NCBI RefSeq assembly: GCF_001423265.1
Contig: NZ_LMND01000023.1
Location: 62,001 to 126,000, forward strand
Length of the DNA: 64,000 bases
From: Methylobacterium sp. Leaf108
GTDB lineage: Bacteria; Pseudomonadota; Alphaproteobacteria; Rhizobiales; Beijerinckiaceae
Direction: 5' to 3'
Shown: positions 9,701-43,141 of the stretch, piece by piece
Position numbering within the stretch: the first letter of the stretch is position 1
How the letters are laid out: the number at the start of each line of letters is the position of its first letter
Position numbers and translations under genes: made by a program
The notes under the pieces: generated by a model
The model's database searches: none
What the model was told of the DNA's origin: nothing
What the model saw: the letters and a program-made list of their open reading frames with translations, nothing else

Positions 9701-9831
9701 GCCCTGTGTCGCGGTCCGGTTGGGTCCAGGCCGCCGTTGCGTTTCTTTGGCCGGTGGCGGCTTCGAGAAGGCGTCGCCGATGCCGTCTCGGCCCGATCCG
9801 ATCGCCGCCGGCGCTCGGCTCATTCCATTTT

Positions 9832-9926
9832 CGGTTGATCACTCCGTGATGCGGACATGGGCTTCGCTCAGGCGCCGCGCGGGCTCGGTGATACGGTTCC
9901 CGCTTGATCCAAGCGGAAACCGTATC
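9832..9926 (+). repeat. 95-bp dispersed repeat element, copy A
   Basis: This segment matches the reverse complement of 36446-36540 at 91 of 95 positions. Its right part (9889-9927) is a near-perfect hairpin: TGATACGGTT and CCGCTT pair with AAGCGG and AACCGTATCA around a short loop. The copy lies between the Tsx-like gene and the 3' end of the molybdenum-hydroxylase operon. Confidence 0.92.
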
Positions 9927-10881
9927 AGAGCACCTTCCAGAAGATCAGGATCATGACGACGTAGGCCGCGACCAGCAGGCCCGCGCCCCGGATGTCGAGG
10001 ATGGCCCGCCTGTCGGGCGGCGGCGACAGCCACCAGCCGAGGCGGTTGGCCGTCCAGGGCACCAGTTTCGCGGTCAGCAGCACGCTGAAGACGTTGCCGA
10101 TGAAGAGCGCCACCGGAAAATCGAGGTTCAACGTCCGCGAGAGGAACGGCGTACCGACGAAGAGGCCCCACAGGAAGACGGTGGGATAGAGCGTCAGCAG
10201 GACGATCATGTTCATCTTCCACGCGGCCGGCGCGGGCGCGCCCTCGGGCGTGGCATCGCGGAACCACTGCTCGAAGCCGCTCTGCACCCGGCGGGTGTGG
10301 AACTCCGCCGTCAGCGGAGCCGCTTCCTCGATCAAGGCCCGGCGTTCGGGCGAATCCAGCCAGGCCTGGAGGTTGGCGTCGCTGTCGAAGCGCAGGATGG
10401 CGACGTAGTCCTCCTGCACGCCCGGCACCGCGGGCTCGAACCGGTAGCCCTGCAGGCCCGCCGCCTTCGATTGGGCGGCGGCGACCTTCTGCTCCCAGAT
10501 GCGATACTGCGCCTCCATCCCCGGTTTCACGCGGGTGCTGATGACGGCGGAGGCCGGTGCGGTGCGGGCCGCACTGGCGTCGTCGCTGACGATGTGGACG
10601 TCGTCGCGCCCCACCAGCATCGGGGCGGCGCCCTCGATGCGCGATTGCCGCTCGGGCGAGGCCAGCCAGCCCTTGGCGTGCTCCACGCTGACGAAGCGCT
10701 GCAGGATCACCCAATCGACCTGGAGCGGCGGGTGGGGCGGCATCAGCCGCTGCTCGATGAAGCCCGGAAACGTCGAGATCACCGCGCTGGTGCCGCCCTG
10801 CCACTGGGCGAAGGCTTCCGTCCTCTCGGGCCGGACGGAGGTCTGCGTCACGATGCTGACGCTGCGGGACTGCGCGCTCAT
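9925..10881 (-). CDS. Membrane protein with two antibiotic-biosynthesis-monooxygenase-like (ABM) domains
   Basis: The 318-residue protein has two similar ABM-type (dimeric alpha-beta barrel) domains, roughly residues 6-100 and 108-200. Each has the pattern of a strand, F-PGF or LQGYRF, and an LASPERQ or LDSPERR helix. Then come an amphipathic linker and three membrane segments (about 222-245, 254-275 and 295-316). Its ATG overlaps the stop of the upstream Mo-subunit gene by 4 nt (ATGA), so translation is probably coupled. Stand-alone ABM proteins are quinone- or heme-related monooxygenases or structural proteins; catalytic activity here is not shown. The membrane part may anchor it, or the hydroxylase, at the cytoplasmic face. 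Confidence 0.75.
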   Translation of the reverse strand: MSAQSRSVSIVTQTSVRPERTEAFAQWQGGTSAVISTFPGFIEQRLMPPHPPLQVDWVILQRFVSVEHAKGWLASPERQSRIEGAAPMLVGRDDVHIVSDDASAARTAPASAVISTRVKPGMEAQYRIWEQKVAAAQSKAAGLQGYRFEPAVPGVQEDYVAILRFDSDANLQAWLDSPERRALIEEAAPLTAEFHTRRVQSGFEQWFRDATPEGAPAPAAWKMNMIVLLTLYPTVFLWGLFVGTPFLSRTLNLDFPVALFIGNVFSVLLTAKLVPWTANRLGWWLSPPPDRRAILDIRGAGLLVAAYVVMILIFWKVL

Positions 10882-13580
10882 CGGCCGGCGAGCTGCGTGA
10901 AGAGGCGGTCGGGCGTGAACGGAAGGTGGGCGAAGCGCACCCCCGTGGCATCGGCGAGCGCATTCGAGACCGCGGGCGCCACCGGGTTGATGCCGCATTC
11001 GCCCTGGGACTTCGCGCCGAGCGGCCCGATGCTGTCGGTCGTCTCCGCGAAGAAGATGTCGGTGTGGGGCGTGTCGGCCAGGGTCGGGATGCGGCAGTTG
11101 CGCAGCTGCGGGTTGACCATCCGCCCCTCGTCGTCGTGCACCATGTTCTCGACGAGCGCCCAGCCGTAGCCCATCGACACGGCGCCATCGAGCTGGCCGC
11201 GGCACTGCATCGGGTTGATCGGCAAGCCGATGTCGGCGGCGTGGACGCTGTGCAAGACCCGGATCTCGCCGGTGACGCGGTGCACCGCGAGGCGGACGCC
11301 CTGCACGTTGAAGGCGATGGTCCGCGGCGAGAGATAGGCCCGGCGGCCGACCGTGAAGCGATGGTCGACCTTGGCGCCCTCGGCGTGGAGATCGACGAGC
11401 GAGATGCGGCGGTTGCCGCAGATGACGCCGTCGTTGTCGAGGCGGCACTGGTCCATCGGCACGCCGGTGTGTCGGCTGGCGAAGTCGAGGATGTCCTGGG
11501 CCATGGCCTCGGCCGTCAGATGGACCGCCTTGCCGGCGACGACGACGCCGGTGCTGGCGAAGGTGCCGGTGTCGTAGGGGGTGCGGTCGGTGTCGGCGTT
11601 GATGATGCCGACGTCGTCGGCGCGCGTCCCCAGGATGGAGGCGGCGATCTGCTTGTGGGCCGTGGTGATGCCGTTGCCCATCTCGGTGGAGCCGCAGGCG
11701 AGGAAGTAGCTGCCGTCGGCCTTGAGGTGCATCTCGGCGCCCGAGCGATGCTCGGTGGGCGGGCCGCATTCGAGCATGGCCAGCGCCACGCCCCGGCCCT
11801 CGGCCCAATCCGCCCCCTCGGGCTTGGCGACGCCGTTGCCTTTGGCGAGCTCGCGCTCGACGATGTCGAGGCACTCGCCGATGCCGTGGCTGCCGAAGCT
11901 GGCGTCGGACGCCTCCTTCCAGATCGATTCGATGTTGTCGCCCGGCTGCACCACGTTTAGGCGCCGCATCGCGAAGGGATCGATGCCGAGCCGGCGGGCG
12001 AGTTCGTCGATGGCGCATTCGATCGCGAAGGTGGTCTGCGAGGCGCCGTAGCCGCGAAAGCCGCCGCCCGGCGTCATGTTGGTGTAGACGGCGTGGCCGA
12101 TGCCCTTCTTGTTGGCGCAGCGGTAGGCCGCGATCGGGCTCGCCATGGCGGCCGCCAGGGTCTCGCTGCCGTGGCCGCCGTAGGCGCCGGTGTTGGAGAA
12201 CACCTCGACGTCGAGGGCCGTCAGCGTGCCGTCCTTGCGGGCGCCGATCTTCACGCGGGTGGTCATCTGGTGGCGCGTGGTGGCGCCGATGAACTCCTCC
12301 TCGCGGGTCCATTCCCATTTCACGGGGCGGCCGAGCTTCATCGTGGCGAACAGTACGAGGTCTTCCGAGACCATCTCCTGCTTGCCGCCGAAGCCCCCGC
12401 CGACGCGCTCCGTGAACACGTGGAGGTCCCGGGGCGAGAGCCCCATGACGTAGGCGAGCTTCTGGCGCACCGCGAACGGCCCCTGCGAACTCGTGCGCAC
12501 GTGCCAGCGGCCGTCCTCGCCCTTCCAGGCGATGGAGCCGTGCGTCTCGAGGTGCACGTGCTGGACGCGGGAGGTCGAGTAGGTCTGCTCGTGGACGACG
12601 TCGGCTTGCGCGAAGCCCTTGGCCACGTCGCCGATCTCGCCCTGCAGCGTGCAGAAGATGTTGTTGCTCCCCGCGACGTAGTCCTTGTCGTGCAGGATCG
12701 GCGCGTCGGGCCGCATGGCCAGGACCGGATCGAACACCGCCGGCAGGATCTCGTAGTCGACGTGGAGCGCGCGGCACCCCGCCTCGGCGGCCGCTTCCGT
12801 CTCGGCCACCACGGCCGCCACCCGCTGGCCGGAAAACCGCGCCACGTTGTCGAGGAGCAGGATGTCGTCGGGATCGACGAGGTGGTCCTCGTGCAGGGCC
12901 GAGCTGAACCGGCGCCCGGGCACGTCCTCCCAGGTGTAGACCGCGACCACGCCGGGCACGGCCAGGGCCGCCTGCCTGTCGATGCCGACGATGCGTGCGT
13001 GGGCGTGGGGCGAGCGCAGGACCTTCAGGTGCAGCAGGTCGGCCACCGCGATGTCCATCGTGTAGCGCGCGGTGCCGGTGAGAATGGTGTCGGTGAACGG
13101 ATTGGGCAGGCTCGCCCCCAGCGCCTTGCCGGCCAGATCGGCCTCGATGTTGCACACGCCGTTGAGCGCGTCCTTGATCGAGCGGTAGCCGGTGCAGCGG
13201 CACAGGTTGCCCTTGAGGGCATGCGGCAGGTCGCTCTTCTGGGCCTCCGTCAGGGTGACGGCGGTCATGATCATGCCGGCGGTGCAGAAGCCGCACTGGA
13301 AACCTTGCGCGTCATGGAACGCCTGCTGGAGCGCATGCTTGTGCCCGCAGGGCGACAGGCCCTCGATGGTGGTGACCTCGCGCCCCTCGGCCCGGAAGGC
13401 CGGAACGAGGCAGGAGTGGAACGGCTTGCCGTCGATGTGCACCGTGCAGGCGCCGCAATCGCCGGAATCGCAACCCTTCTTGACGCCGAACACCTCGAGG
13501 TCGCGCAGGAGGGTCCGCAGGCACTGGCCCGGCGCCGGCTCGGCGGCGTAGGCGCGGCCGTTGATGGAATACTCAGTCAT
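10878..13580 (-). CDS. Molybdenum hydroxylase, fused 2Fe-2S and molybdopterin-binding subunit (xanthine dehydrogenase family)
   Basis: The 900-residue fusion starts with a ferredoxin-type module: first cluster ligands in KKGCDSGDCGACTVHIDG and HSC, second cluster in QCGFCTAGM and NLCRCTGYRS (residues 1-160). The molybdopterin domains follow from about residue 180 to the end, with GGGFGGKQ, PGGGFRGYGASQ and the active-site glutamate region AKSQGECGINP. In many relatives the two modules are separate genes. With the FAD subunit upstream it should form a cytoplasmic enzyme that hydroxylates purines, N-heterocycles or aldehydes. The substrate cannot be assigned. The ATG at 13580 overlaps the FAD-subunit stop by 4 nt. 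Confidence 0.9.
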   Translation of the reverse strand: MTEYSINGRAYAAEPAPGQCLRTLLRDLEVFGVKKGCDSGDCGACTVHIDGKPFHSCLVPAFRAEGREVTTIEGLSPCGHKHALQQAFHDAQGFQCGFCTAGMIMTAVTLTEAQKSDLPHALKGNLCRCTGYRSIKDALNGVCNIEADLAGKALGASLPNPFTDTILTGTARYTMDIAVADLLHLKVLRSPHAHARIVGIDRQAALAVPGVVAVYTWEDVPGRRFSSALHEDHLVDPDDILLLDNVARFSGQRVAAVVAETEAAAEAGCRALHVDYEILPAVFDPVLAMRPDAPILHDKDYVAGSNNIFCTLQGEIGDVAKGFAQADVVHEQTYSTSRVQHVHLETHGSIAWKGEDGRWHVRTSSQGPFAVRQKLAYVMGLSPRDLHVFTERVGGGFGGKQEMVSEDLVLFATMKLGRPVKWEWTREEEFIGATTRHQMTTRVKIGARKDGTLTALDVEVFSNTGAYGGHGSETLAAAMASPIAAYRCANKKGIGHAVYTNMTPGGGFRGYGASQTTFAIECAIDELARRLGIDPFAMRRLNVVQPGDNIESIWKEASDASFGSHGIGECLDIVERELAKGNGVAKPEGADWAEGRGVALAMLECGPPTEHRSGAEMHLKADGSYFLACGSTEMGNGITTAHKQIAASILGTRADDVGIINADTDRTPYDTGTFASTGVVVAGKAVHLTAEAMAQDILDFASRHTGVPMDQCRLDNDGVICGNRRISLVDLHAEGAKVDHRFTVGRRAYLSPRTIAFNVQGVRLAVHRVTGEIRVLHSVHAADIGLPINPMQCRGQLDGAVSMGYGWALVENMVHDDEGRMVNPQLRNCRIPTLADTPHTDIFFAETTDSIGPLGAKSQGECGINPVAPAVSNALADATGVRFAHLPFTPDRLFTQLAGR

Positions 13581-14392
13581 GCGAGCTCCGTACGGATCTG
13601 TTCGGCCAGGTACTGCGTGACGTGGCGCTTGTAGGGAGCCGTCCCGTGCACGTCGTGGAAGTAGGCGTCCGCCGGCAGGCGCTCGTCGATGGCGCGGCGC
13701 AGCGCGTCCGCCGACGGGAGCGTGGCGAAGCGCAGCTGCACCGGCTTCGGGGTCGCCGCGGTGATCGTCAGGAGGAAATCCGCGCCGCCGTCGCCGGCGG
13801 TGCCGATGATCAGGGCGGCCGAGCGACCGTAGCGGGTCAGCGAGACCTGCCGCATGGCCGTGCGCTTCGTCAGCGCCGCGGCGGGCAGGTGGATGCTGCG
13901 CAGCAATTCGCCCTTGCCCAGGACGTTGGCGTGGTTGCCGGTGACGAAATCGACCACCGTGACGGTGCGCGCCTGTCCCTCGCGCGGCCACAGCGTGCAC
14001 ACGCCCTCCAGCGCCGCGGTCAGCGAGATCATCGCGCCGGCCGGTAGCGACATGCAGACGTTGCCGCCGATGGTGGCGGCGTTCCAGACCTTGAACGACA
14101 TCAGGAACGAGTCGATGCACTGCCGGAACAGGGGCACCGCGCGCCAGGCCGCCGGACCCTCGAACCCGTGCAGATCGACGACGCGACAGGTCGCGGCGAT
14201 CTCGAGGCCGGCGTCGGTCGCCGTCAGCGGCGCCCAGCCCAGTCTCTCGAGATCGATCAGCGTATCGACCGCCACCTGCGGTTCCGCGAACAGCCAGGTG
14301 CCGCCCGCGAGCCACGAGTAGCCGTCGTGCCAGCCCTGGATCTCGTCCAGCGATGTCGGTCGCTTGACGTCGACAACGGTCGAAAGGTTCAT
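13577..14392 (-). CDS. Molybdenum hydroxylase, FAD-binding subunit
   Basis: This 271-residue protein has the layout of the medium (FAD) subunit of the xanthine dehydrogenase/CO dehydrogenase family: an N-terminal FAD pyrophosphate loop (WLAGGTWLFAEP), then ATIGGNVCMSLPAGAM for flavin binding around residues 105-120, and a C-terminal CODH-type domain. It passes electrons from the Fe-S clusters to its acceptor. It is the first gene of a three-gene operon and overlaps the next gene by ATGA. Upstream lies a 709-bp gene-free region that should carry the operon promoter. Confidence 0.9.
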   Translation of the reverse strand: MNLSTVVDVKRPTSLDEIQGWHDGYSWLAGGTWLFAEPQVAVDTLIDLERLGWAPLTATDAGLEIAATCRVVDLHGFEGPAAWRAVPLFRQCIDSFLMSFKVWNAATIGGNVCMSLPAGAMISLTAALEGVCTLWPREGQARTVTVVDFVTGNHANVLGKGELLRSIHLPAAALTKRTAMRQVSLTRYGRSAALIIGTAGDGGADFLLTITAATPKPVQLRFATLPSADALRRAIDERLPADAYFHDVHGTAPYKRHVTQYLAEQIRTELA

Positions 14393-32256: not shown

Positions 32257-35200
32257 TCAGGACGCCTGTCGCACCGGTTGCGCCGCGACGGGGGTGCCGA
32301 GGTCGCGGTGCAGGCCGGCCATCGCGGCCAGCGCCAGGCGGCTCGCCTCTGCCGCCTCCTCGATGTCGCCCTGTGTCAGGGTGCCGGCCCGGCTGGCGCG
32401 CTCGAAGGCCCGGCAGGTCTCCGACAGGGGCGTGAACCCCAGCATGCCCGCCGAGGAGATGAGCCTGTGCGCGATCCCCGCCAGGTCGCGCTCCGGGTCG
32501 GCGAAGGTTTGGTGCGTGGTCGGTTCGAGCAGGAAGCCGGTCCTGAGGACGCCGTCGAGATCGCACAGCATCCGGGCGAGCTTCTCGCCCCCGAGCAGGT
32601 CCCTGAGTTCGTCGAAGGTCGCACGGTCGACCGCGGCGGGGCCGGCCGCCGTGCCCTGTTCGGACGCGGTCCACCGGGCCACGGCCGCGAGCAGTTCCGC
32701 CCTTCGGAACGGCTTGCCGACGTGGTCGACCATGCCCGCCGCCTTGAACGCCGCCACCTGATCGGGCAGCACGTTGGCGGTCAGCGCCAGGATCGGGATG
32801 GTCGCTCGGCGCCCACCCATCGCGCGGATGCGGGCGGTGGCCTCCAAGCCGTCCATGACCGGCATCTGCACGTCCATCAGGATGACGTCGTAGAGGGTGC
32901 GCTGGGCCGCATGGACCGCCTCGGCGCCGTCGCAGGCGACGTCGACCTCGTGCCCGGCACCGGCCAGGACCGCCATGGCGATCTCCTGGTTCGTCATCAC
33001 GTCCTCCACCAGCAGGATCCTGGCGGGGCGGTGCGCTGCGGCCGGATGGGGCGCGACATCGGCCGCCGCCGGTACCGAAGCGCCGATCGCGAGGTCCACC
33101 GTGAACCAGAAGGTCGAGCCCCCCCCGGGCCGGCTCTCCATCCCGATCCGCCCGCCCATCAGTTCGACGAGGCTCCTGCTGATGGCGAGCCCGAGTCCGG
33201 TTCCTCCGAAGCGGCGCGAGATCGAGCCGTCGACCTGGCTGAAGCGCAGGAACAGCCGGTCGCGCCTGTCCTGCGGAACCCCGATGCCGGTGTCGCCGAC
33301 CTCGCAGCGCAGGTGCAGCGTGCCCGCCTTGCGTCTCTCCCCGCGCAGGGTGAGCGCCACCTCGCCGGCGTGAGTGAACTTCACCGCGTTGTTGAGGAGG
33401 TTCAACAGCACCTGGCGCAGGCGGTTCTGGTCTCCCACCAGTGTCCGTGGCAGGTCCGGGTCGATGTCGGTCCGCAACGTGAGGGGTTTGTCGGCCACGA
33501 GGCCGCTGATCATCGCCATGGTGTCGGCCACGAGCGCGGACAGCGAGAACGCCTCCGGTTCGAGCTCGACGCGGCCGGCCTCGATCTTCGAGAAATCGAG
33601 GACGTCGTTGACGATGGTGAGCAGCGCGCGGCCCGAACCGAGGATGCGGCCGAGCTTGATCCGGTCCGGCGCGCCCTGCCCGGGCTCGTCCAGCAGCATC
33701 TCGGTGTAGCCGATGATGCTGTTGAGCGGGGTCCGGATCTCGTGGCTCATGGCCGCCAGGAAATCGGACTTCGCGGCATTCGCCGCCTCCGCCTCGATGC
33801 GGGCCGCTTCGGCGGCATGGCCGGCCTCGATCAGCACCGCCTCGGCGTGCTTGCGCCGGTCGACGTCGAAGTTCAGGCCGACCATGCGCAGGGGATGGCC
33901 CTGCGCATCGACATACGCGCTCCCGATCCCGTGGAGCCAACGGATGCCGCCATCGGGCAGCAGCACGCGGAATTCGGCCGAGTAGCTCTCGCCGGTCTCC
34001 ACGGCGCGCCTCACCGCGGCCCACACGAGGTCGGCATCGTGGGGGTGGACGAGCCCACTCCAGGTGTCGGCGGTCATCGTCGCCGGCCCGTCGCCCTCGA
34101 GCCCGTGCATGGCCGCGCTCTCGTGGGACAGGATGACCGCGGCGATAGCGCCGTCGGCGAACACCACGTCCCAGGTGCCCGCGCCGGCCGCCGTCTGCGC
34201 AATCCGCAACAGGTCGGCCGATTGGCGCAGGGCGTCGCGGTCGGTCACCGCGTCGTGGATGTCGAGGGCGGTCCCCAGCCAGTTCACAACCTCGCCGTCG
34301 CGCATGATCGGAACGATCACCAGCCGGTGCCAGCGATGAGCGCCGTCCTCCCCGGCCAGGCGCACGTCGGCCTCCCATCGACCGTCCGAGGCGATCGTCC
34401 CGTCGTTCCAGGCCCGCTCGATCGGCGCGCGGTCGTCGGGATGGTAGCAGGCCAGCCGATCTACGAAGGTGGTCCCGATCCGACCGTGGTAGGTCTCGAA
34501 GCGGCGGTTGGCATAGACTGTGTCGCGGCTGTCGCGGTCCATGATCCAGACCATCTGCGGCAGGGTGTCGGCCAGGATGCGGTAGCGGGCCTCGCTTTCG
34601 CGCAGGGCCTCCTCGGCCCGGCGACGCTGCGAGGTGTCGCGGACCGCAGTGATGAAGCCGTCCGGCCTGCCCCGGGCGTCCCGCTGGATCTGCAGCGAGG
34701 CCTCGACCCAGATCCAGCGCCCGTCCCGGTGGCGCAGCCGGCTCACGGCCACCGCCCGGTCACGCTCGCCGGAGACGAGGCCCGCGATCATCCGATCGAA
34801 CGCCGGCACGTCGTCGGGATGGATGCCGTCGCGCGGGCTCAGGCCGATCAGTTCTTCCGGGGCGTAGTCGATGAGGGCTCGGGAGGCGGGCGAGACGTAG
34901 GTGCGTCGGCCCTCGCGATCGAGCCGCACGATCATGTCGCTGGCGCTGTCGGCCATCTGGCGATAGCGCGCCTCGCTGATCCGCAGCGCCTCGGCCCTCT
35001 GTCTCCGGCTCGTGACGTCGCGACTGAGACAGACGAACCCGACGAGGCGGCCCGCGCCGTCGCGCAGCGGTTCGAGGAGGTCGCTCGCCCAGAAGCGCGT
35101 GCCGTCCTTGTGCTGGCGCCAGCCTTCGACTTCCGCCCGGCCCCTCGCCCGTGCCGCGGCGACGATGGCCTTCGCCGAGGCGTCGGCCCGGTCGTCGTCG

Positions 35201-36306
35201 GGACGCAGGTGCGACAGATGACGGCCGACGATCTCTTCCGGCTTGTAGCCGAAGATGCGCTCGCCGCCGGCGTGCCAGTCGATCACGATTCCATTGGGGT
35301 CGAGCAGGGAGATCGCACAGACGGTCAGGCCTTCGACGATGAGCCGGGCCTGGCTTTCGCGTACCGCGCGTCTCGCCTCGCAGTCGGGCGGGTCGGTCAC
35401 GTCCTCGGTGACGATGACGAAGGCGTCGGGCCGGTCGACGGCCGTTTCGCAGGTGGCACCGACCACGACGGATCGGATGTCTCCGGAGGGCCCGACGATC
35501 CGCGCCTCGTAATGGAAGCCCCTTCTCGCGGCACTCGCCGCGGCGACGATGGCGCGCGCCCGCTCGCGGTCGTCGGGATGATGGCGCAGGAGCATCTGGT
35601 CGAGTCCCGGCGCGGCCTCGTCCGGACCGAACCCGTAGATCCGGCGCGCCTCGGCCGACCAGGCCCGGTCGCCGGTCGGCCATTCGAGACGGATGTGCCC
35701 GACTTCCCCGAACCGTCGCGCCACCGGAAGGACATCGTCGGCCTTGGCGTCGGATGTCCGGTCATGCGGTTCTCCGGCATCCCGCGGCTTTGCGTTCCGA
35801 TCGGGATGCGGACCCAGGGAATGGATTTGCAGGTGCGCCGAGACGACCGCGGCCAGATCCCGGAGGCGGCGGCGTCGATCGGCGCGGAACGTGCGTGCCG
35901 TCACGTCCAGGACGCAGAGCGTTCCGACCCGCAGCCCGGACTCCAGGGTCAGCGCGGCGCCGGCGTAGAAGCGAATGCCCGGTGGCCCGGCGACGAGCTT
36001 CAGCCGCGAGAAGCGCGGATCGCGGCTCGCATCCTCGACCACGAAGACGTCGTCCGACGCGATGGCATGACGGGAAAACGGGTCGTCCTTGCCAGCCCCG
36101 TCGAGGGACGGGCCGCAGACCGTCCCGAACCGGACCCGGTCGGCCGCGACCAGCGAGACCGCGGCGACGGGGAGGTCGAACAGGGATCTCGCGACCTGGC
36201 AGACGGCCTCGAACAGCGGGTCGTGTTCCGTGCCGACGATCCTCGGATCGCGGGAGAATCGCAGGCGCGGCAGCGCGATGGCAGCAATGGGGAGCTTATC
36301 GGACAC
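32257..36306 (-). CDS. Hybrid sensor histidine kinase: GAF-PAS(x5)-HisKA-HATPase-REC-HPt
   Basis: The 1349-residue protein has no membrane segment, so it senses in the cytoplasm. A GAF domain (about 25-165) is followed by five PAS units (about 200-305, 315-435, 445-560, 570-690, 700-820). The kinase core has the phosphorylated His855 in AAMSHEIRTPLNSIIG, the N-box NLLNNAVKFT, and DTGIGVP and GGTGLGLAIS ATP motifs. A receiver domain (1095-1215) has the acceptor Asp1145 in ILMDVQMPVMDG. A C-terminal HPt domain has His1280 in IAHRLISSAGMLGF. All relay modules are therefore on one chain, and a separate output regulator is needed but is not adjacent. Ligands are unknown. Confidence 0.95.
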   Translation of the reverse strand: MSDKLPIAAIALPRLRFSRDPRIVGTEHDPLFEAVCQVARSLFDLPVAAVSLVAADRVRFGTVCGPSLDGAGKDDPFSRHAIASDDVFVVEDASRDPRFSRLKLVAGPPGIRFYAGAALTLESGLRVGTLCVLDVTARTFRADRRRRLRDLAAVVSAHLQIHSLGPHPDRNAKPRDAGEPHDRTSDAKADDVLPVARRFGEVGHIRLEWPTGDRAWSAEARRIYGFGPDEAAPGLDQMLLRHHPDDRERARAIVAAASAARRGFHYEARIVGPSGDIRSVVVGATCETAVDRPDAFVIVTEDVTDPPDCEARRAVRESQARLIVEGLTVCAISLLDPNGIVIDWHAGGERIFGYKPEEIVGRHLSHLRPDDDRADASAKAIVAAARARGRAEVEGWRQHKDGTRFWASDLLEPLRDGAGRLVGFVCLSRDVTSRRQRAEALRISEARYRQMADSASDMIVRLDREGRRTYVSPASRALIDYAPEELIGLSPRDGIHPDDVPAFDRMIAGLVSGERDRAVAVSRLRHRDGRWIWVEASLQIQRDARGRPDGFITAVRDTSQRRRAEEALRESEARYRILADTLPQMVWIMDRDSRDTVYANRRFETYHGRIGTTFVDRLACYHPDDRAPIERAWNDGTIASDGRWEADVRLAGEDGAHRWHRLVIVPIMRDGEVVNWLGTALDIHDAVTDRDALRQSADLLRIAQTAAGAGTWDVVFADGAIAAVILSHESAAMHGLEGDGPATMTADTWSGLVHPHDADLVWAAVRRAVETGESYSAEFRVLLPDGGIRWLHGIGSAYVDAQGHPLRMVGLNFDVDRRKHAEAVLIEAGHAAEAARIEAEAANAAKSDFLAAMSHEIRTPLNSIIGYTEMLLDEPGQGAPDRIKLGRILGSGRALLTIVNDVLDFSKIEAGRVELEPEAFSLSALVADTMAMISGLVADKPLTLRTDIDPDLPRTLVGDQNRLRQVLLNLLNNAVKFTHAGEVALTLRGERRKAGTLHLRCEVGDTGIGVPQDRRDRLFLRFSQVDGSISRRFGGTGLGLAISRSLVELMGGRIGMESRPGGGSTFWFTVDLAIGASVPAAADVAPHPAAAHRPARILLVEDVMTNQEIAMAVLAGAGHEVDVACDGAEAVHAAQRTLYDVILMDVQMPVMDGLEATARIRAMGGRRATIPILALTANVLPDQVAAFKAAGMVDHVGKPFRRAELLAAVARWTASEQGTAAGPAAVDRATFDELRDLLGGEKLARMLCDLDGVLRTGFLLEPTTHQTFADPERDLAGIAHRLISSAGMLGFTPLSETCRAFERASRAGTLTQGDIEEAAEASRLALAAMAGLHRDLGTPVAAQPVRQAS

Positions 36307-36606
36307 TCCGACTGCGGTCCTTATCGACGGTTGGTCGGCCTCCGGCCGATGTCATCGAGCCGTCCGGGTCGAGCCCTATCATCGCCATCGCCGACTGAAC
36401 ACCGCGTCGTGATCGACCGGGCCGAGGGGGTGACGATCTCCCGGCGATACGGTTTCCGCTTGGATCGAGCGGGAACGGTATCACCGAGCCCGCGCGGCGC
36501 CTGAGCGAAGCCCATGTCCGCATCACGACGTGATCAACCGGAACGTCCATCGCCCGCTGGCGGCGAAAGCCGGTCTTCCGCCGCATTACGGGGGCAGGTG
36601 CAGGCG
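36307..36606. other. Divergent intergenic region containing repeat copy B
   Basis: This 300-bp region separates the histidine kinase start (leftward) from the beta-helix gene start (rightward), and must contain both promoters. About a third of it is the 95-bp dispersed repeat. No other gene or motif is seen. Confidence 0.6.
36446..36540 (-). repeat. 95-bp dispersed repeat element, copy B
   Basis: The reverse complement matches copy A (9832-9926) at 91 of 95 positions. The hairpin part (about 36445-36483) keeps most of its pairing despite substitutions. This copy lies between two divergent promoters, 66 bp upstream of the start codon of the beta-helix protein. Confidence 0.92.
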
Positions 36607-37602
36607 ATGATCGCAGTCCCGTTCCTGGCCGCCCTGGTCGTGTCCGTTTCGCTCACCGCACCGGCGACGGCCTCGCCTCCCTGCGGCGCCGAGGCCAGGG
36701 CCCGGCTCCTGGCGCCGCCGGGTCCGGACGACGACACGGTTTCCCTCACCTGCTCGATCCGCCTGCGTCCCGGGGACCGGATCGCGCGCAAGATCCTCCT
36801 CGAAGGGAGTGCGGCCTCGGGCGTGACCCTCGATTGCGCCGGGGCGACCCTCGGCCGGACCGATCCCCCGCCGGCGTTCAGCGATTTCGCCGTGGAGATC
36901 CGCTCGCGCCAGCCGACCCCCGGCTCGCCGCACTGGGAGCGGCCGGTGGACGTGACCCTGCGCGACTGTACGATCCTCGGCAACGTCCGGATCTGGGGCA
37001 TGGGGCTCAACGGCCAGGGCGAGGCTGTGCGGCAATCCTCTCGCCGGCCCGGGCATACCGAACGGGCGCAGGGAGCGGCGCCGAGCCGGATCCGCATCCT
37101 CGATTCCCGCCTCACCGCGCTCGGGGCGATTCCGCTCTATCTGGCGCCCGGCGTCACCGGCGTGACCCTGTCGGGCTCGACGCTGGACGGCACCTCCTCG
37201 GCGGTGGCGCTCTATCTCGACGCCGAGAGCGGCGGCAACACCATCACGAACAACACCTTCGCGGTCTCGGCGGGCCGTGAAATGGTGGCGGTCGACGGTT
37301 CGGCCCGCAACACCATCACCGGCAACCGCTTCGTGCTCGGGGCTCGCGGCGGCATCCACCTCTACCGCAACTGCGGCGAGGGCGGCACGGTCCGCCACCA
37401 GACGCCGTCGGACAACCTCATCACCGGCAACAGCTTCCGCCAGACCGGCCTGTGGCGCTCCGAGCCCGTCAAGGTCGGCTCGCGCGGCGGCTGGGGCTGG
37501 ACCATGAACTGCGACGCCGATGCCGGATATCCGTTCGGCAGCAGCCTCGACGACGACGACCATGCCACCGGCAACGTCGTCGAGGGCAATCGCGTGGAGT
37601 AG
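36607..37602 (+). CDS. Secreted right-handed parallel beta-helix protein
   Basis: The ATG at 36607 begins MIAVPFLAALVVSVSLTAPA, a signal peptide, giving 331 residues. The mature part carries repeated beta-helix rungs with G-x-T-L, N-T-I-T-x-N and N-x-I-x-G-N patterns (SGGNTITNNTF, ARNTITGNRF, SDNLITGNSF, DHATGNVVEGNRVE), as in NosD/pectate-lyase-like proteins. Such proteins bind or cleave polysaccharides outside the cytoplasm. No catalytic set was recognised. An in-frame ATG at 36514 overlaps the dispersed repeat and adds 31 residues before the signal peptide, so it was not chosen. Confidence 0.75.
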   Translation: MIAVPFLAALVVSVSLTAPATASPPCGAEARARLLAPPGPDDDTVSLTCSIRLRPGDRIARKILLEGSAASGVTLDCAGATLGRTDPPPAFSDFAVEIRSRQPTPGSPHWERPVDVTLRDCTILGNVRIWGMGLNGQGEAVRQSSRRPGHTERAQGAAPSRIRILDSRLTALGAIPLYLAPGVTGVTLSGSTLDGTSSAVALYLDAESGGNTITNNTFAVSAGREMVAVDGSARNTITGNRFVLGARGGIHLYRNCGEGGTVRHQTPSDNLITGNSFRQTGLWRSEPVKVGSRGGWGWTMNCDADAGYPFGSSLDDDDHATGNVVEGNRVE

Positions 37603-37838: not shown

Positions 37839-39371
37839 TCAGAGCGGGATGTTGTCGTGCTTCTTCCAGGGCTGCTCCATCGCCTTGGTGCGCAGCATGC
37901 CCAGCGCCCGGGCGATGCGCTTGCGGGTCGAATGGGGCATGATCACCTCGTCGATGTAGCCGCGCTCGGCCGCCACGAACGGCGACAGGAAACGATCCTC
38001 GTATTCGGAGGTGCGCGCCGCGATCTTGTCGCTGTCGCCGATTTCGCTGCGGAAGATGATCTCGACGGCGCCCTTGGCGCCCATCACCGCGATCTGCGCG
38101 GTCGGCCAGGCGTAGTTGAGGTCGGCGCCGACGTGCTTGGAGGCCATCACGTCGTAGGCGCCACCGAAGGCCTTGCGGGTGATGATGGTGACGAGCGGCA
38201 CGGTGGCCTGGCTGTAGGCGAACAACAGCTTGGCGCCGTGCTTGATCAGGCCGCCGTATTCCTGGGCGGTGCCCGGCAGGAAGCCCGGCACGTCCACGAA
38301 AGTCACGATCGGGATCGAGAAGGCGTCGCAGAAGCGCACGAAGCGGGCGGCTTTTCGCGATGCGTCCGAGTCGAGCACGCCGGCCAGCACCATCGGCTGG
38401 TTGGCCACGAAGCCGACGGTGCGGCCCTCGATGCGGCCGAAGCCGGTGATGATGTTGCGGGCGTAGGTCGCCTGGATCTCGAAGAAGTCGCCCTCGTCGG
38501 CGACGCGCCGGATCAACTCGCCCATGTCGTAGGGGGTGTTGGGGTTGTCGGGGATCAGGGTGTCGAGGCCCTTGTCGAGGCGCAAGGGGTCGTCGAAGCT
38601 CTCGATCTCCGGCACGCCGTCGACGTTGTTGGCGGGCAGGAAGTCGAGGAGGCGGCGGATCTGCAGGATCGCCTCGACGTCGTTCTCGAACGAACCGTCG
38701 GCGATGGACGACTTCGTCGTATGGACCTTGGCGCCGCCGAGCTCCTCCGCCGTGACGACCTCGTTGGTGACGGTCTTCACCACGTCGGGGCCGGTCACGA
38801 ACATGTAGCTGGTGTCGCGCACCATGAAGATGAAGTCGGTCATGGCCGGCGAATAGACGTCGCCGCCCGCGCACGGGCCCATGATCACCGAGATCTGCGG
38901 GATCACGCCCGAGGCCGCGACGTTGCGCTTGAACACCTCGCCGTAGCCGCCCAGCGCCGCCACACCTTCCTGGATGCGCGCGCCGCCGGCATCGAAGATG
39001 CCGATGATCGGGGCGCGCATCTTCAGCGCCATGTCCTGGACCTTGATGATCTTGGCCGCGTGCGTCTCGGATAGGGAGCCGCCGAACACCGTGAAGTCCT
39101 TCGAGAACAGGAAGACGGTGCGGCCGTTGACGGTGCCCCAGCCGGTGACGACGCCGTCGCCGGGGATCTTCTGCTTCTCCATCCCGAAATCGGTGGAGCG
39201 GTGCTGCACGAACATGTCGAATTCCTCGAACGACCTGTGGTCGAGCAGGAGTTCGATGCGCTCGCGCGCCGTCAGCTTGCCGCGCTTGTGCTGGGCCGCG
39301 ACGCGGTTTTCGCCGCCGCCGAGGCGTGCCTCGGCGCGCCGCTCCTCGAGCCGGTCGAGAATGTCCTTCAT
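37839..39371 (-). CDS. pccB: Propionyl-CoA carboxylase beta chain (carboxyltransferase)
   Basis: The 510-residue protein has the length and two-domain crotonase fold of acyl-CoA carboxylase beta subunits. Visible are [40 protein letters not shown] (first acyl-CoA site), [20 protein letters not shown] and, in the second half, [19 protein letters not shown] and [17 protein letters not shown]. In methylotrophs propionyl-CoA carboxylase works in the ethylmalonyl-CoA pathway, carboxylating propionyl-CoA to methylmalonyl-CoA. Its biotin-carrying alpha subunit is not adjacent. Two copies of a 15-nt repeat precede it. The start [20 protein letters not shown] fits the family. Confidence 0.93.
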
Positions 39372-39415
39372 GGTGGTCTGGCCTCGAGCACTGGAACGGT
39401 CACGACCTCACTCGC

Positions 39416-39445
39416 GCCGGTACAGGCTTTGCCGGTACAGGCTTG
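39416..39445. repeat. 15-nt tandem repeat, two units, upstream of pccB
   Basis: GCCGGTACAGGCTTT (39416-39430) is followed directly by GCCGGTACAGGCTTG (39431-39445), 14 of 15 identical. The pair lies 45 bp upstream of the pccB start codon. It is too short to say more. Confidence 0.75.
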
Positions 39446-39509
39446 GCGGTAAGGTCCTGGGTCGGCCTTAGCACGGGTCGCTCCGGTGGAAAACGGGCTG
39501 CGGGCTCCC

Positions 39510-40304
39510 TCAGCCGGCGTATTGCGCGGTCAGGGCGGCCGCCTCGAACTCCGCCTTGCGCATCGTCATCCGAGCCTGCGCCTCCTCATCCGGCCCCCAG
39601 ACCGCCGCCTGGTAGGTCTCGTCCACATGGGCGGCCTCCCACGCCTCCTCCGGGCTCAGGCGGCCGCGCAGGACGGCGAGCGCGATCAGGAGCGAACCGG
39701 TGAGGGTCGTCATGGTGTGGAGGGCGGCGAGTCGGAACGGTCCTTCGGTCGCCGCGATCGCCTCCTCCAGAATGCGGATCGACCGCTCGGGCTGGTCGAC
39801 GTGGCGCACGCCCTCGCTCAGGATGAAGCGGGCGCCGAGCGCCTCGTATGCCCAGTCGAGCACCGGGTCCCAGGCGGCGGCCTGCATCGCCACGAGGCGC
39901 TCGGGCTCGCCGGCCCGGTAGGCGACGAGGTCGGTCACGGCATAAGACGCCAGATCCGCCACCACCGCCTCGCGGCGGGGGGCGACCCCGTCGATAGCGG
40001 TGTTGGCGAGACGGGTAAGGGGCATCCGTGCGGGGTCGATCACCGCGACCTGCGTCTGCCATTCCGCCGCCACCGCTTCGGCCAGGGCGCGTGTCGGCAA
40101 CGTCAGCGGGTTCTTGGCGGGCGTGTTGGCGGAGCGCCCATCGAGGGTGAGGCGAAAGCCGCCCCCGGCATCGGCGAATCCGGCCTGTTCGTAGAAGCGC
40201 TTGGGCAGGGCCGGACGCCCCCCTTCGCGCACCGCCTTCAGCGGATCGCGGGCGGCGGACGGGTCGGGCTCGCCGAGCCAGTCGGACAGGGTGTCGTCGT
40301 TCAT
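39510..40304 (-). CDS. ATP12-family F1-ATPase assembly chaperone
   Basis: From the ATG at 40304 (MNDDTLSDWLGEPDPS) the protein has 264 residues, normal for alphaproteobacterial ATP12 homologues. An N-terminal beta-rich region has ALPKRFYEQAGFADAGGGFRLTLDGR and TPAKNPLTLPTRALAEAVAAEW. The C-terminal helical domain has AYRAGEPERLVAMQAAAWDPVLDWA, characteristic of ATP12, which binds the F1 alpha subunit during assembly. In Rhizobiales it commonly sits beside an HAD phosphatase and an RluA enzyme, exactly as here. Confidence 0.92.
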   Translation of the reverse strand: MNDDTLSDWLGEPDPSAARDPLKAVREGGRPALPKRFYEQAGFADAGGGFRLTLDGRSANTPAKNPLTLPTRALAEAVAAEWQTQVAVIDPARMPLTRLANTAIDGVAPRREAVVADLASYAVTDLVAYRAGEPERLVAMQAAAWDPVLDWAYEALGARFILSEGVRHVDQPERSIRILEEAIAATEGPFRLAALHTMTTLTGSLLIALAVLRGRLSPEEAWEAAHVDETYQAAVWGPDEEAQARMTMRKAEFEAAALTAQYAG

Positions 40305-40353
40305 GAAGGACCAGATCTGGGGGAACCGGATTTTCGACGGAGCACGAGGTGCC

Positions 40354-41016
40354 TCAGGCGGGCGGCAGGGGGCCGCCGAACAGGTCGGCGAGGGCTCCGG
40401 CATGGTCCACCACCGTCACCGCGCCCGCCCCGAACAACGCGCCGGGGCTGTGATAGCCCCAGGCGACGCCGATCGCGGCGGCGCCGGCGCTCACCGCCAT
40501 CGCCATGTCGTAGGTGGTGTCGCCGATCATCATCGTGGTCGAAGGCACCGCCCCGGCCTCGTCCATCGCCTGGCGCAGCATGGCCGGGTCGGGTTTGGAG
40601 GGCGCGTCGTCGGCGGTCTGGATGGTGGCGAACCAGCCCTCCCAGCCGTTGGCGGCGATGAGATGCTCGACGCCGCGGCGCGACTTGCCGGTGGCGATGC
40701 CCAGGCGCACGTCGTTGCGCGCATGCAGCTTGGCGAGAAGGTCGCCCATGCCGGGAAACAGCGGCTCCTCGTAGTCCGGGTCGAGCCGCAGCGCGTTGAA
40801 GGCGCGCTTGTAGCTCTCCGACAACCCCTCGATCGGCCCATCCTCGCCCACGAGACGGCGGAACGCCTGCGGCAGCGACAGGCCGACCACCGAGAGCGCC
40901 TCGCGCCGCTCGGGGCACGCCAGCCCGTGCTCGGCGAAGGCCACGCCTTGAGCAGCAACGATGAGATGCTGGCTGTCGACGAGGGTTCCATCGACATCGA
41001 AGACCACGAGCCTCAC
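40354..41016 (-). CDS. HAD-superfamily phosphatase, phosphoglycolate-phosphatase-like
   Basis: The 220-residue protein has the four HAD motifs: FDVDGTLVDS (nucleophile Asp and acid/base Asp at residues 6 and 8), GIATGKSRRGVE, KPDPAML and IGDTTYDMAMA. The helical cap between motifs I and II is of the Gph/PGMB type, so small phosphorylated metabolites are likely substrates. It lies 49 nt upstream of the ATP12 gene in the same direction, probably co-transcribed. The exact substrate is not deducible. Confidence 0.88.
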   Translation of the reverse strand: MRLVVFDVDGTLVDSQHLIVAAQGVAFAEHGLACPERREALSVVGLSLPQAFRRLVGEDGPIEGLSESYKRAFNALRLDPDYEEPLFPGMGDLLAKLHARNDVRLGIATGKSRRGVEHLIAANGWEGWFATIQTADDAPSKPDPAMLRQAMDEAGAVPSTTMMIGDTTYDMAMAVSAGAAAIGVAWGYHSPGALFGAGAVTVVDHAGALADLFGGPLPPA

Positions 41017-41047
41017 GGTGCGTCGGGCCGATCGACCGCGACGCGCA

Positions 41048-41431
41048 TCACGGCTGCCGGGCCGGTGCGGCCGGCGAGGCGGGATTGGCCCTCGGCCGCT
41101 CGTAGCCGAGCTTGCACCGCACCAGGAAGCGCCGCCGGGCGCCGCCGCGCAGGCCGCGGTTGTGCGATTGCCGGTTGCAGCTGGCGTAGGAGTTGCGCCG
41201 CCGCTTTTCCGGCCGCGCGCCGGGGAGGGGCCGCTGGACGGGCGCCGTCGCGGCCGCCGGCGGCGCGGCTTGGGCCGGTCGCTGCACGGTCGCGGGCGGC
41301 GTCACGGCGGGAGGCTGGGCGGGCGGGGTCTGCGCCGAGGCCTGCCCGAACATCAGCGCACCGACCAGCATGCCGCCGGCAAGGGCCGCACCCGTGAGGC
41401 GCACGCGGGGGGGGATCGTCGGTCGATGCAT
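41048..41431 (-). CDS. Secreted proline/alanine-rich small protein
   Basis: The start codon at 41431 opens a 127-residue product with a signal peptide (LTGAALAGGMLVGALMFGQA, cleavage after ASAQ), then a Pro/Ala/Gln/Val-rich spacer and a basic tail with two cysteines (SYASCNRQSHNRG and LVRCKLGYERPR). It may be a periplasmic or surface protein with one disulfide. It lies 31 nt upstream of the HAD gene on the same strand. The much longer frame continuing to 42754 is an out-of-frame shadow of the RluA gene. No family is recognised. Confidence 0.6.
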   Translation of the reverse strand: MHRPTIPPRVRLTGAALAGGMLVGALMFGQASAQTPPAQPPAVTPPATVQRPAQAAPPAAATAPVQRPLPGARPEKRRRNSYASCNRQSHNRGLRGGARRRFLVRCKLGYERPRANPASPAAPARQP

Positions 41432-41553
41432 CGGTACTCCGCCACAGGGCCGCCGAAGCGGGACCACGTCTGCGACCCGCCGGCCGCGAGGATACGGTAT
41501 GCACGGCGATTGCCAAGCATGTTCCCGGCACCCTGCGGCATCGGGCCCGCCGG

Positions 41554-42993
41554 TCAGGCTTCGGGTGCCTCGACGATGGGGTCGTAGCGCGACGCATCGA
41601 ACCCGAGCAGGTTCCAGCTCTGCGCCATGTGCGGCGGCAGGGGCGCGGTCACGTCCACCGGCTTTCCCGTGCGCGGATGCGGGATCACGATGCGGCGGGC
41701 GAGCAGGTGCAGCCGGTTCTGGATGCCGCCGGGCAATTCCCAGTTCTCGATGCTGAAGTACTTCGGGTCGCCGACGATGGGGTGGCCGATGTGCGCCGCA
41801 TGCGCGCGCAACTGGTGTGTCCGGCCGGTCACCGGCTTCAGGGACAGCCAGGAGAGCTTCTGGGCGGCGTTGTCGACCATGGCGTAATAGGTCAGTGCAT
41901 GGGCCGCCCCTTCGTCGCCGTGGCTGGCGACCCGCATGCGCGCGTCGGCGTCGGTCGGCTCCTCCTTGGCCAGATAGGTCGAGATCCGGCCCTGGTGGAC
42001 GCGCGGCACGCCGGCGGTGAGCGCCCAATAGACCTTGCGGGCCGAGCGGGAGCGGAAGCTCTTGGCCAGCGTCGCCGCGGCCAGCCGCGTCTTGGCGACG
42101 ATGAGGCAGCCGGCGGTATCCTTGTCGAGGCGGTGGACGAGGCGCGGCTTCTGGCCGTCCTTGCCGGTCAGGGCCTCGAGCAGGCCGTCGACGTGGCGCA
42201 CGGTGCCCGAACCGCCCTGGACCGCGAGGCCGAAGGGCTTGTTCAGGATCATCATCTCCGCATCCTCGTAGAGGATCAGCGAGCGGATGAAGTCGGCGTC
42301 GTTCGCGTCCCGCGCGAGGCTGCGCGGGCGGTCCGCCACCGGATCGAGCTTGAGCGGCGGGACGCGCACGCTCATGCCCGGCGCGAGGCGGTCGTTGGGC
42401 TTGGCGCGCTTGCCGTCGACCCGCAGTTCGCCCTTGCGCACGATGCTCTGGACGCGGGTGAAGGGCAGCTGCGGGAACCGCGTGGTGAGGAAGCGGTCGA
42501 TCCGCATCTCGGCCTCGTCCTCCTCCACCACGAGGGTCTGCACCCCCGAGGCGAGGGTGGCGGAGGCGGCGGCGCGCTGCTCGCGCCGGGTCGGCCCCTC
42601 GGGGGCGGGCTCCTGCGCCGTGGCAGCGGCACGGCGCGGCCGCGGAGCATCGGCGATCTCGGCCGCCTCGGCGCGAGGCGCACGGGTGCGGGGCGCCCGG
42701 ACGGGGCGCGCCTCCGCCTCGGGGCCGGGATCGGGCGCATCGCCCGGGCGCCAAGGCGCACGCTTGGCCGATTCGTCGCCCCGGACCTGGGCGGCGCGCT
42801 GTGCAGCATCGAGGGCGCTGGTGCGCGGGCCGGTGCGCTCGCGGTCGGGACGTCGGAACGCCTCGGAACGCCCGGGCTTGCCCGGGCGGAACGGCTTGGC
42901 GGCACGGCCGGGGCCCGCGCCCCTACCGCTGGCATCCTTGCCGCCGGCACCTTTGCGCCCGGCGCCGCCGCGTGAGGGTGGTCGAGTGGTCAT
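41554..42993 (-). CDS. RluA-family 23S rRNA pseudouridine synthase
   Basis: The protein has 479 residues, against about 320 for typical RluC/RluD. The extra length is an N-terminal tail of about 150 residues rich in Arg, Pro, Gly and Ala, likely disordered and RNA-binding. An S4-type RNA-binding domain follows (about 160-215: RIDRFLTTRFPQLPFTRVQ, GELRVDGKRAKPNDRLAPG). The catalytic domain has the family motif RLVHRLDKDTAGCLIVAKT with the nucleophilic Asp, and PVTGRTHQLRAHAAHIGHPI. It uses uridine in ribosomal RNA as substrate; the exact sites are not assigned. Confidence 0.92.
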   Translation of the reverse strand: MTTRPPSRGGAGRKGAGGKDASGRGAGPGRAAKPFRPGKPGRSEAFRRPDRERTGPRTSALDAAQRAAQVRGDESAKRAPWRPGDAPDPGPEAEARPVRAPRTRAPRAEAAEIADAPRPRRAAATAQEPAPEGPTRREQRAAASATLASGVQTLVVEEDEAEMRIDRFLTTRFPQLPFTRVQSIVRKGELRVDGKRAKPNDRLAPGMSVRVPPLKLDPVADRPRSLARDANDADFIRSLILYEDAEMMILNKPFGLAVQGGSGTVRHVDGLLEALTGKDGQKPRLVHRLDKDTAGCLIVAKTRLAAATLAKSFRSRSARKVYWALTAGVPRVHQGRISTYLAKEEPTDADARMRVASHGDEGAAHALTYYAMVDNAAQKLSWLSLKPVTGRTHQLRAHAAHIGHPIVGDPKYFSIENWELPGGIQNRLHLLARRIVIPHPRTGKPVDVTAPLPPHMAQSWNLLGFDASRYDPIVEAPEA

Positions 42994-43141
42994 CGCCCGC
43001 TGCTAGCATCCGCCCGGCGCCGCGACAAATCAAACCCGCCGCGCGACCCAAGCAATCGCCGTCGTCCGGTCGACCGGTGTCGGTCGCACCGGGAGGGGCC
43101 TCCCACGGTGCCCGGCCATCCTCGATCGGCCGACCCGAACC

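Follow-up and report, generated by a model that had tools for sequence, protein, structure and literature searches.

The window analyzed here is a stretch of 64,000 nucleotides from the 4.47-Mb, 35-contig genome of Methylobacterium sp. Leaf108 (G000:C23:62001-126000). Genes were called with our own codon-usage gene finder, which was trained on the window. A minus-strand operon at positions 9925 to 14392 includes, at 9925 to 10881, a gene for a 318-aa protein with an antibiotic biosynthesis monooxygenase (ABM) domain, and orthologues without the element described below end at the same position. A short dispersed repeat lies beyond the 3' end of this operon. Its second copy lies in opposite orientation on the minus strand at approximately 36445 to 36553, between the divergent genes 32257 to 36306 (minus strand) and 36598 to 37602 (plus strand); the left end of this copy is decayed, and its right repeat now reads TCG. 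Both contexts had been described correctly in the original prediction, which compared 9832 to 9926 with the reverse complement of 36446 to 36540, and these sequences are indeed identical at 91 of 95 bases (95.8%). The proposed 95-bp boundaries proved too narrow. In nearly all of 63 aligned Leaf108 copies (places from several searches of the genome, fetched with their flanks), the repeat continues by 12 to 13 nt to the left (consensus TCATNCCATTTC) and by 1 nt to the right; thus, copy 1 is a 102-bp element at 9823 to 9924, located between TCA repeats. An alignment of 52 copies from 14 genomes was also used. Read in host-gene sense (minus strand), the order is H2-core-H1.

The left part of the repeat is a hairpin absent from the original prediction, H1 (9825 to 9860; outer stem 9825-9833/9852-9860, inner stem 9838-9842/9846-9850), which was verified by a pairing test. 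It is followed at 9860 to 9885 by a conserved 26-nt core, GGCTTCGCTCAGGCGCCGCGCGGGCT (plus strand), as seen in core searches and the 52-copy alignment. The near-perfect hairpin noticed previously is H2 (9889 to 9927, including the terminal TCA repeat). Its arms 9889-9906/9910-9927 are 94% complementary and form a stem of 18 bp counting the repeat, and it is further supported by end location, pair counts, and folding. The left direct repeat, TCA at 9820 to 9822, was found by locating the ends of the copy and is the distal copy of the duplicated target, the duplication itself being seen at a site that is polymorphic between sister genomes. The right direct repeat, TCA at 9925 to 9927, is, when read on the minus strand, the TGA that terminates the gene 9925 to 10881, according to gene calls and orthologues. 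The element termini read T[AC]C...G[TG]A within terminal inverted repeats of about 11 nt, which are identical at both ends in L015; in Leaf108 copies they are imperfect. In one Leaf108 copy (L085, G000:C4:36528-36562 with flanks), H2 is replaced by another palindrome of equal length, which still ends exactly at a TGA stop codon. The family is MITE-like: it is short and non-coding, and has many dispersed copies, a target-site duplication, and terminal inverted repeats.

The expectation of a many-copy family was borne out, and the outcome that would have spoken against it, two copies alone and none in sister species, was clearly not obtained. The 95-mer has at least 40 full- or near-full-length places in the Leaf108 genome with 93 to 100% identity (40 of 131 candidates scored). 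A 35-nt core pattern matched 59 places (26 on the plus and 33 on the minus strand) and a looser core pattern 78, with no match of the reversed control in either case. The 95-mer matches and the 59 core places, compared to zero in the control, exclude chance. In a first-look sample, 15 of 41 genomes matched, all of them Methylobacterium (15 of 25), while none of the 16 genomes outside the genus did. An order-level sample of 297 genomes gave matches in 3 of 6 Methylobacterium genomes and in 0 of 291 others. The predicted relatives in sister species were found in 63 of 111 Methylobacterium genomes, 44 of which matched at least five times, with a maximum of 380 places (looser pattern). Since the reversed control also gave 0 or 1 match per genome over these 111 genomes, single core matches mean little. 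The highest count was found in G357 (380), followed by 367 in G356, compared to 0 in the near relative G355. When 400 kb of G355 around the orthologous gene were compared with the window, only 37839 to 41199 and 41553 to 42995 aligned at E <= 1e-50, and gene order between Leaf108 and G355 seems to be scrambled. Spread by plasmids was rejected, with only 2 of 72,556 plasmid records matching (both Methylobacterium, both partial), as was a phage origin (0 of 50,697 phage records). In another genome (G011:C9:58481-58996), five copies are arranged in tandem with a spacing of about 105 bp, an arrangement that would result from insertion of one copy into the terminal TGA of another or from recombination at this triplet. 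No description of the family was met in the titles and abstract openings of the partly surveyed literature, subscription papers being outside this coverage.

Inspection of the flanks for target-site duplications revealed 3-bp repeats and, at a TTA/TTA locus, an empty sister site; this duplication and the exact stop-codon overlap were absent from the original prediction. Among 116 end-located copies, 78 had equal triplets on both sides (TCA/TCA 74, TGA/TGA 2, TTA/TTA 1, and TCG/TCG 1), and the end triplets of the other 38 were unequal, from decay or end-finder errors. A third TGA/TGA locus was found in additional sequence. Of these three loci, two coincide with the stop codon of an H1-side gene, and the third does not. 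Since TCA/TCA alone could be a fixed part of the element sequence, the duplication rests on the TTA/TTA locus and the three TGA/TGA loci. The TTA site is polymorphic between G356 and G357, which are about 99% identical where syntenic: the empty site in G357 reads CAGC-TTA-TGCGGG, and the filled site in G356 reads CAGC-TTA-[TACCAAATCCG ... CCCGTA]-TTA-TGCGGG. The triplet is a TAA stop codon, and the protein ends with VQRVFAREGLALPA in both genomes. Another site, at a TGA stop codon, has no element in G356 (protein end EHRPAV) and holds in G357 a copy with H1 and core but without H2. As H2 is absent there, the host frame runs on into the core and stops within it (protein end EHRPAASPRGA).

Empty sites were also found among orthologues of the ABM-domain gene, for which 80 of 99 loci were kept and 23 of these inspected. 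In all 19 Methylobacterium loci, no element was present within up to 400 nt 3' of the gene, and the stop codon was at the same residue (18 TGA and 1 TAA). The four orthologues from other genera end with TAG (three) or TAA (one). Similarly, the G355 orthologue of the host gene of the Leaf108 copy L078 is empty and ends in TGA at the same residue. We conclude that the repeat is MITE-like and that, by duplicating a 3-bp target, it restores the stop codon.

The coincidence with stop codons is exact. In Leaf108, 39 of the 63 copies have a convergent gene on the H2 side whose TGA stop codon is precisely the terminal TCA; 16 further copies adjoin a 3' end located elsewhere, 7 a 5' end, and 1 nothing, and no copy has a stop codon exactly at its H1 edge. 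Eight copy sets were compared after 51 of 166 copies had been dropped (50 because their ends were unclear and 1 because of a short flank). Among the remaining 115 copies, some loci of G356 and G357 being counted in both sets, the overlap was exact in 55 on the H2 side and in 2 on the H1 side; 38 copies adjoin a 3' end elsewhere, 21 a 5' end, and 1 nothing. Each of the other offsets within 12 nt was represented by 0 to 4 copies, including four copies at offset -8 that probably reflect a register error of the end finder and were not scored as exact. By set, the overlap was exact in 21 of 40 copies in Leaf108 (a stricter subset), 13 of 20 in other relatives, 5 of 8 in G247, and 6 of 14 in G327. 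For G356 or G357, 6 of 19 copies overlapped a stop codon exactly with their H2 side, and 2 others did so with their H1 side. In G335 the overlap was weaker (4 of 14), and 8 of 14 copies adjoin a 5' end. These data show that the duplicated triplet and a stop codon coincide exactly in roughly half of the copies or more. Some copies have partly or wholly lost H2 (L092, L077, and one in a G357 block at script position 149557). Here, the host frame enters the element, a TGA within the element serves as the new stop codon, and the C terminus is changed.

How far this bias follows from the target motif was assessed with the 74 TCA/TCA copies, the flanks of which prefer a palindrome, GNS-TGA-SNC in gene sense. 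G occupied the first position of the last codon in 36 of 43 copies at stop codons, compared to 259 of 514 genes ending in TGA (p = 2e-5), and C was present at +3 in 46 of 74 copies, compared to 214 of 514 such genes (p = 0.001). At non-disruptive sites, the share of stop codons is 7.5% among TGA triplets and rises to 37% when the full motif is present; therefore, motif preference together with the loss of intragenic insertions explains most, but not all, of the stop bias. The overlap is still more frequent than the 0.37 expected from the motif (39 of 63, p = 6e-5; 57 of 115, p = 0.004), and this expectation depends on our own gene finder, with noncoding sequence probably being overcounted. The integration machinery might recognize stop codons as such, or the target might be set by pairing with an internal triplet of the element, an idea to which we give little credence. 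It is touched on by 104 copies with equal repeats. Of these, 86 have TGA or CGA as the inner triplet of H2, and their repeats are TCA (84), TTA (1), and TCG (1), never TGA; among the 18 with another inner triplet, 4 have TGA repeats (three loci, the G356 and G357 copies being partly the same). As these data are not independent, the correlation is a lead only. If true, recognition of stop codons or of the internal triplet would represent a novel strategy for finding safe harbours, written in non-coding hairpins.

The orientation of the element relative to the target triplet is nearly fixed (74 TCA/TCA versus 2 TGA/TGA, p = 8e-20), which is at odds with a simple, symmetric transpososome. It would suit site-specific recombination at an asymmetric TCA core by an integrase-like enzyme, in which the direct repeats would be the crossover core instead of a duplication. 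By inspection, the junction of such a circle would read CGGAAACCGTA-TCA-TACCATTTCCG, which is nearly palindromic. The TTA/TTA and TGA/TGA loci speak against this mechanism, and inspection by eye of the clusters of 466 neighboring ORFs revealed no recurrent recombinase, so that we regard it as rather improbable.

Both hairpins stay paired through two-sided changes. The stem letters differ among relatives while pairing is kept, as exemplified by CATTTCCG/CGGAAATG in Leaf108, CAAATCCG/CGGATTTG in G005, and CGGTTTCCG/CGGAAACCG in G015. The pairing alignment comprised 52 of 77 eligible copies (14 genomes; 51 distinct copies), in which the Leaf108 rows (14 of 35) were hand-picked and lean to varied copies. 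In the 51 distinct copies, H1 had standard pairs in 96.1% of the cells, compared to 81.8% after shuffling and 22 to 50% when the arms were slid. Two-sided changes were found in 104 H1 cells, compared to 38.5 in shuffles, and at 8 pairs, compared to 5.2; further pair types showed no excess (18 versus 16.9, with 131 of 500 shuffles reaching 18). In H2, Watson-Crick pairing prevailed at most positions of all 77 eligible copies, with several pair types at each. G-U pairs in H2 amounted to 25 distinct species-position events on the host-gene strand and 9 on the other strand, and in H2 and H1 together to 35 and 13, respectively (p = 0.002).

Such data could also point to a host-derived regulatory RNA element, a terminator or a stabilizer of mRNA 3' ends, selected at gene ends and only secondarily mobile. 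The two-sided changes in H1 are in line with this, and the strand bias of the G-U pairs fits a structure within the host mRNA, although strand-biased mutation could equally produce it. In three copies, the host-gene strand folds strongly (z = -2.8, -6.6, and -8.1), but the other strand does so about equally (z = -3.0, -6.2, and -5.5). An intrinsic terminator (a hairpin followed by a T run) was rejected, none being found around copy 1 between 9700 and 10050, and a known RNA family was rejected with no match in the window at the gathering score (Rfam 15). Moreover, the 21 of 115 copies at 5' ends, the lack of matches in G355, and the absence of the element behind the 19 orthologues of one host gene argue against a host-derived RNA, which we consider quite improbable. 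In view of the duplicated target and of the sites found empty, selection for a terminator was set aside as the main cause.

In agreement with the original prediction, no transposase was found linked to the element. By eye, the largest clusters of the 466 neighboring ORFs contained no recurrent transposase, and no long element carrying both ends was present in the scanned genome blocks. Four Leaf108 H2 matches without a strict core were followed up as candidates for an autonomous parent; all of them proved to be complete divergent elements. Part of the genomes was covered in this way, and an autonomous element with shared ends was found neither in the scanned blocks nor among 30 PF13340, 16 PF01609, and five Y1 loci.

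Of the kinships initially suggested (REP, RIME, or MITE), the MITE-like character held, while the affinity to REPs moved by a RAYT did not. A REP/BIME-type element, such as those mobilized in Escherichia and Pseudomonas by this Y1 tyrosine transposase, would account for hairpins paired in inverted arrangement, the intergenic location, and the many copies. Furthermore, a Y1 gene is present in the many-copy carriers G327 and G401 and also in G015. However, the proposed search for a RAYT-type transposase yielded no Y1_Tnp (PF01797) match in the Leaf108 genome and matches in 2 of 31 Methylobacterium genomes. Only 2 of 10 copy-rich genomes have Y1, and it is lacking in the three richest, G356, G357, and G247. 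The core was absent from the fetched flanks (about 1.5 kb) of all five Y1 loci of the genus, and inspection of the 52-copy consensus revealed neither a GTAG nor a CGTC tag at the hairpin base. A 3-bp duplication is also not known as a pattern of IS200/IS605 elements. Mobilization by a RAYT is thus highly improbable, even though GTAG-tagged REPs are reported to supply stop codons to flanking ORFs (PMC3733652).

The duplication directs attention to the IS5 family, whose IS1031-type members use TNA targets with a 3-bp duplication, the rule that the present element follows. A MITE derived from such an element is conceivable. Two IS5-type elements of the genus, L232 and L246, which we take to be of the IS1031 type, show TGA/TGA and TTA/TTA 3-bp repeats, and the Leaf108 genome has 6 IS5-type transposase matches. 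Their ends (GAGtCCGTCCGATAAG), however, are unlike T[AC]C[GC]NNNTCCG and unrelated to the element termini, with the reservation that the ends of many such IS copies were not found, and the present element itself has no transposase. Among the 30 PF13340 loci, one (L245 in Leaf108) has an element-like terminal word, but it is about 300 nt outside the IS end and belongs to a complete element copy; the same place (L245 = L366) was again the only one among the 16 PF01609 loci. In addition, 11 of the 12 genomes searched contain IS5-type matches, among them G355, which has 7 PF13340 matches but no element. We therefore consider an IS5 origin possible but unlikely.

Bacterial MITEs such as MiniMdi3 of M. 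extorquens (PMC2680597) are likewise short and non-coding, with inverted termini, target duplication, many copies, and no transposase of their own. MiniMdi3 is about 400 bp long and related to ISMdi3 (PMC2680597), whereas no parent IS was found for the present element, the terminal sequences of which drift while hairpin pairing is kept, and the target of which is often a stop codon. With GTAG-tagged REPs (PMC3733652) it shares hairpin repeats near gene ends, but it differs from them in having no GTAG tag, no associated RAYT that could be found, a 3-bp duplication, and a stop codon (TGA or TAA) that existed before insertion. CGTC-tagged REPs (PMC3733652), found mostly in Alphaproteobacteria, are similarly palindromic and without associated transposase; they have stems of 8 to 9 bp, a CGTC tag, and a CCA tail, in contrast to the two hairpins (H2 of 18 bp with the repeat) and the 26-nt core described here. 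In the main text of PMC3733652, Methylobacterium does not occur.

In summary, the data make it likely that the repeat represents a Methylobacterium family of non-autonomous MITE-like elements of about 102 bp, which insert at TNA, duplicate it, and regenerate stop codons. A putative transposase acting in trans would insert the element at TNA, mostly TCA in element orientation, and duplicate the triplet. This enzyme would prefer a roughly palindromic target, GNSTNASNC, which may be common at the last codon and opal stop in these GC-rich genomes. Insertions inside genes would be purged, and those at a stop codon would be harmless, since the stop is regenerated. The host mRNA would then have a strong hairpin that starts right at its stop codon and might influence the release of ribosomes or 3' decay. 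For E. coli, it has been reported that translation is lowered by REPs located very near stop codons.

The present activity of the family was estimated by comparing 33 G356 loci and 34 G357 loci, most of which were shared by the two sets; 5 and 5 of them, respectively, differed by more than 40 nt. The differences comprised H1-core units, a minisatellite, a tandem element, a clean insertion, an insertion with deletion, and one large difference. The tandem difference amounts to one whole element (TGA-E-TGA-E-TGA versus TGA-E-TGA). The minisatellite (G356 script position 442251, C1 about 1220550) has a unit of about 71 nt that includes an H1 arm, and about two more units than in G357 (142 nt). With so few differences, among them one clean insertion and one with later deletion, present activity is modest, and low or uncertain.

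The family thus provides a genus-wide mobile element that would be nearly harmless through its choice of target, as it rebuilds the stop codon it hits. The strong hairpins at zero distance behind many stop codons may serve as a natural experiment on termination, ribosome rescue, and mRNA decay, and sister genomes with hundreds of copies should make target choice and activity directly measurable.
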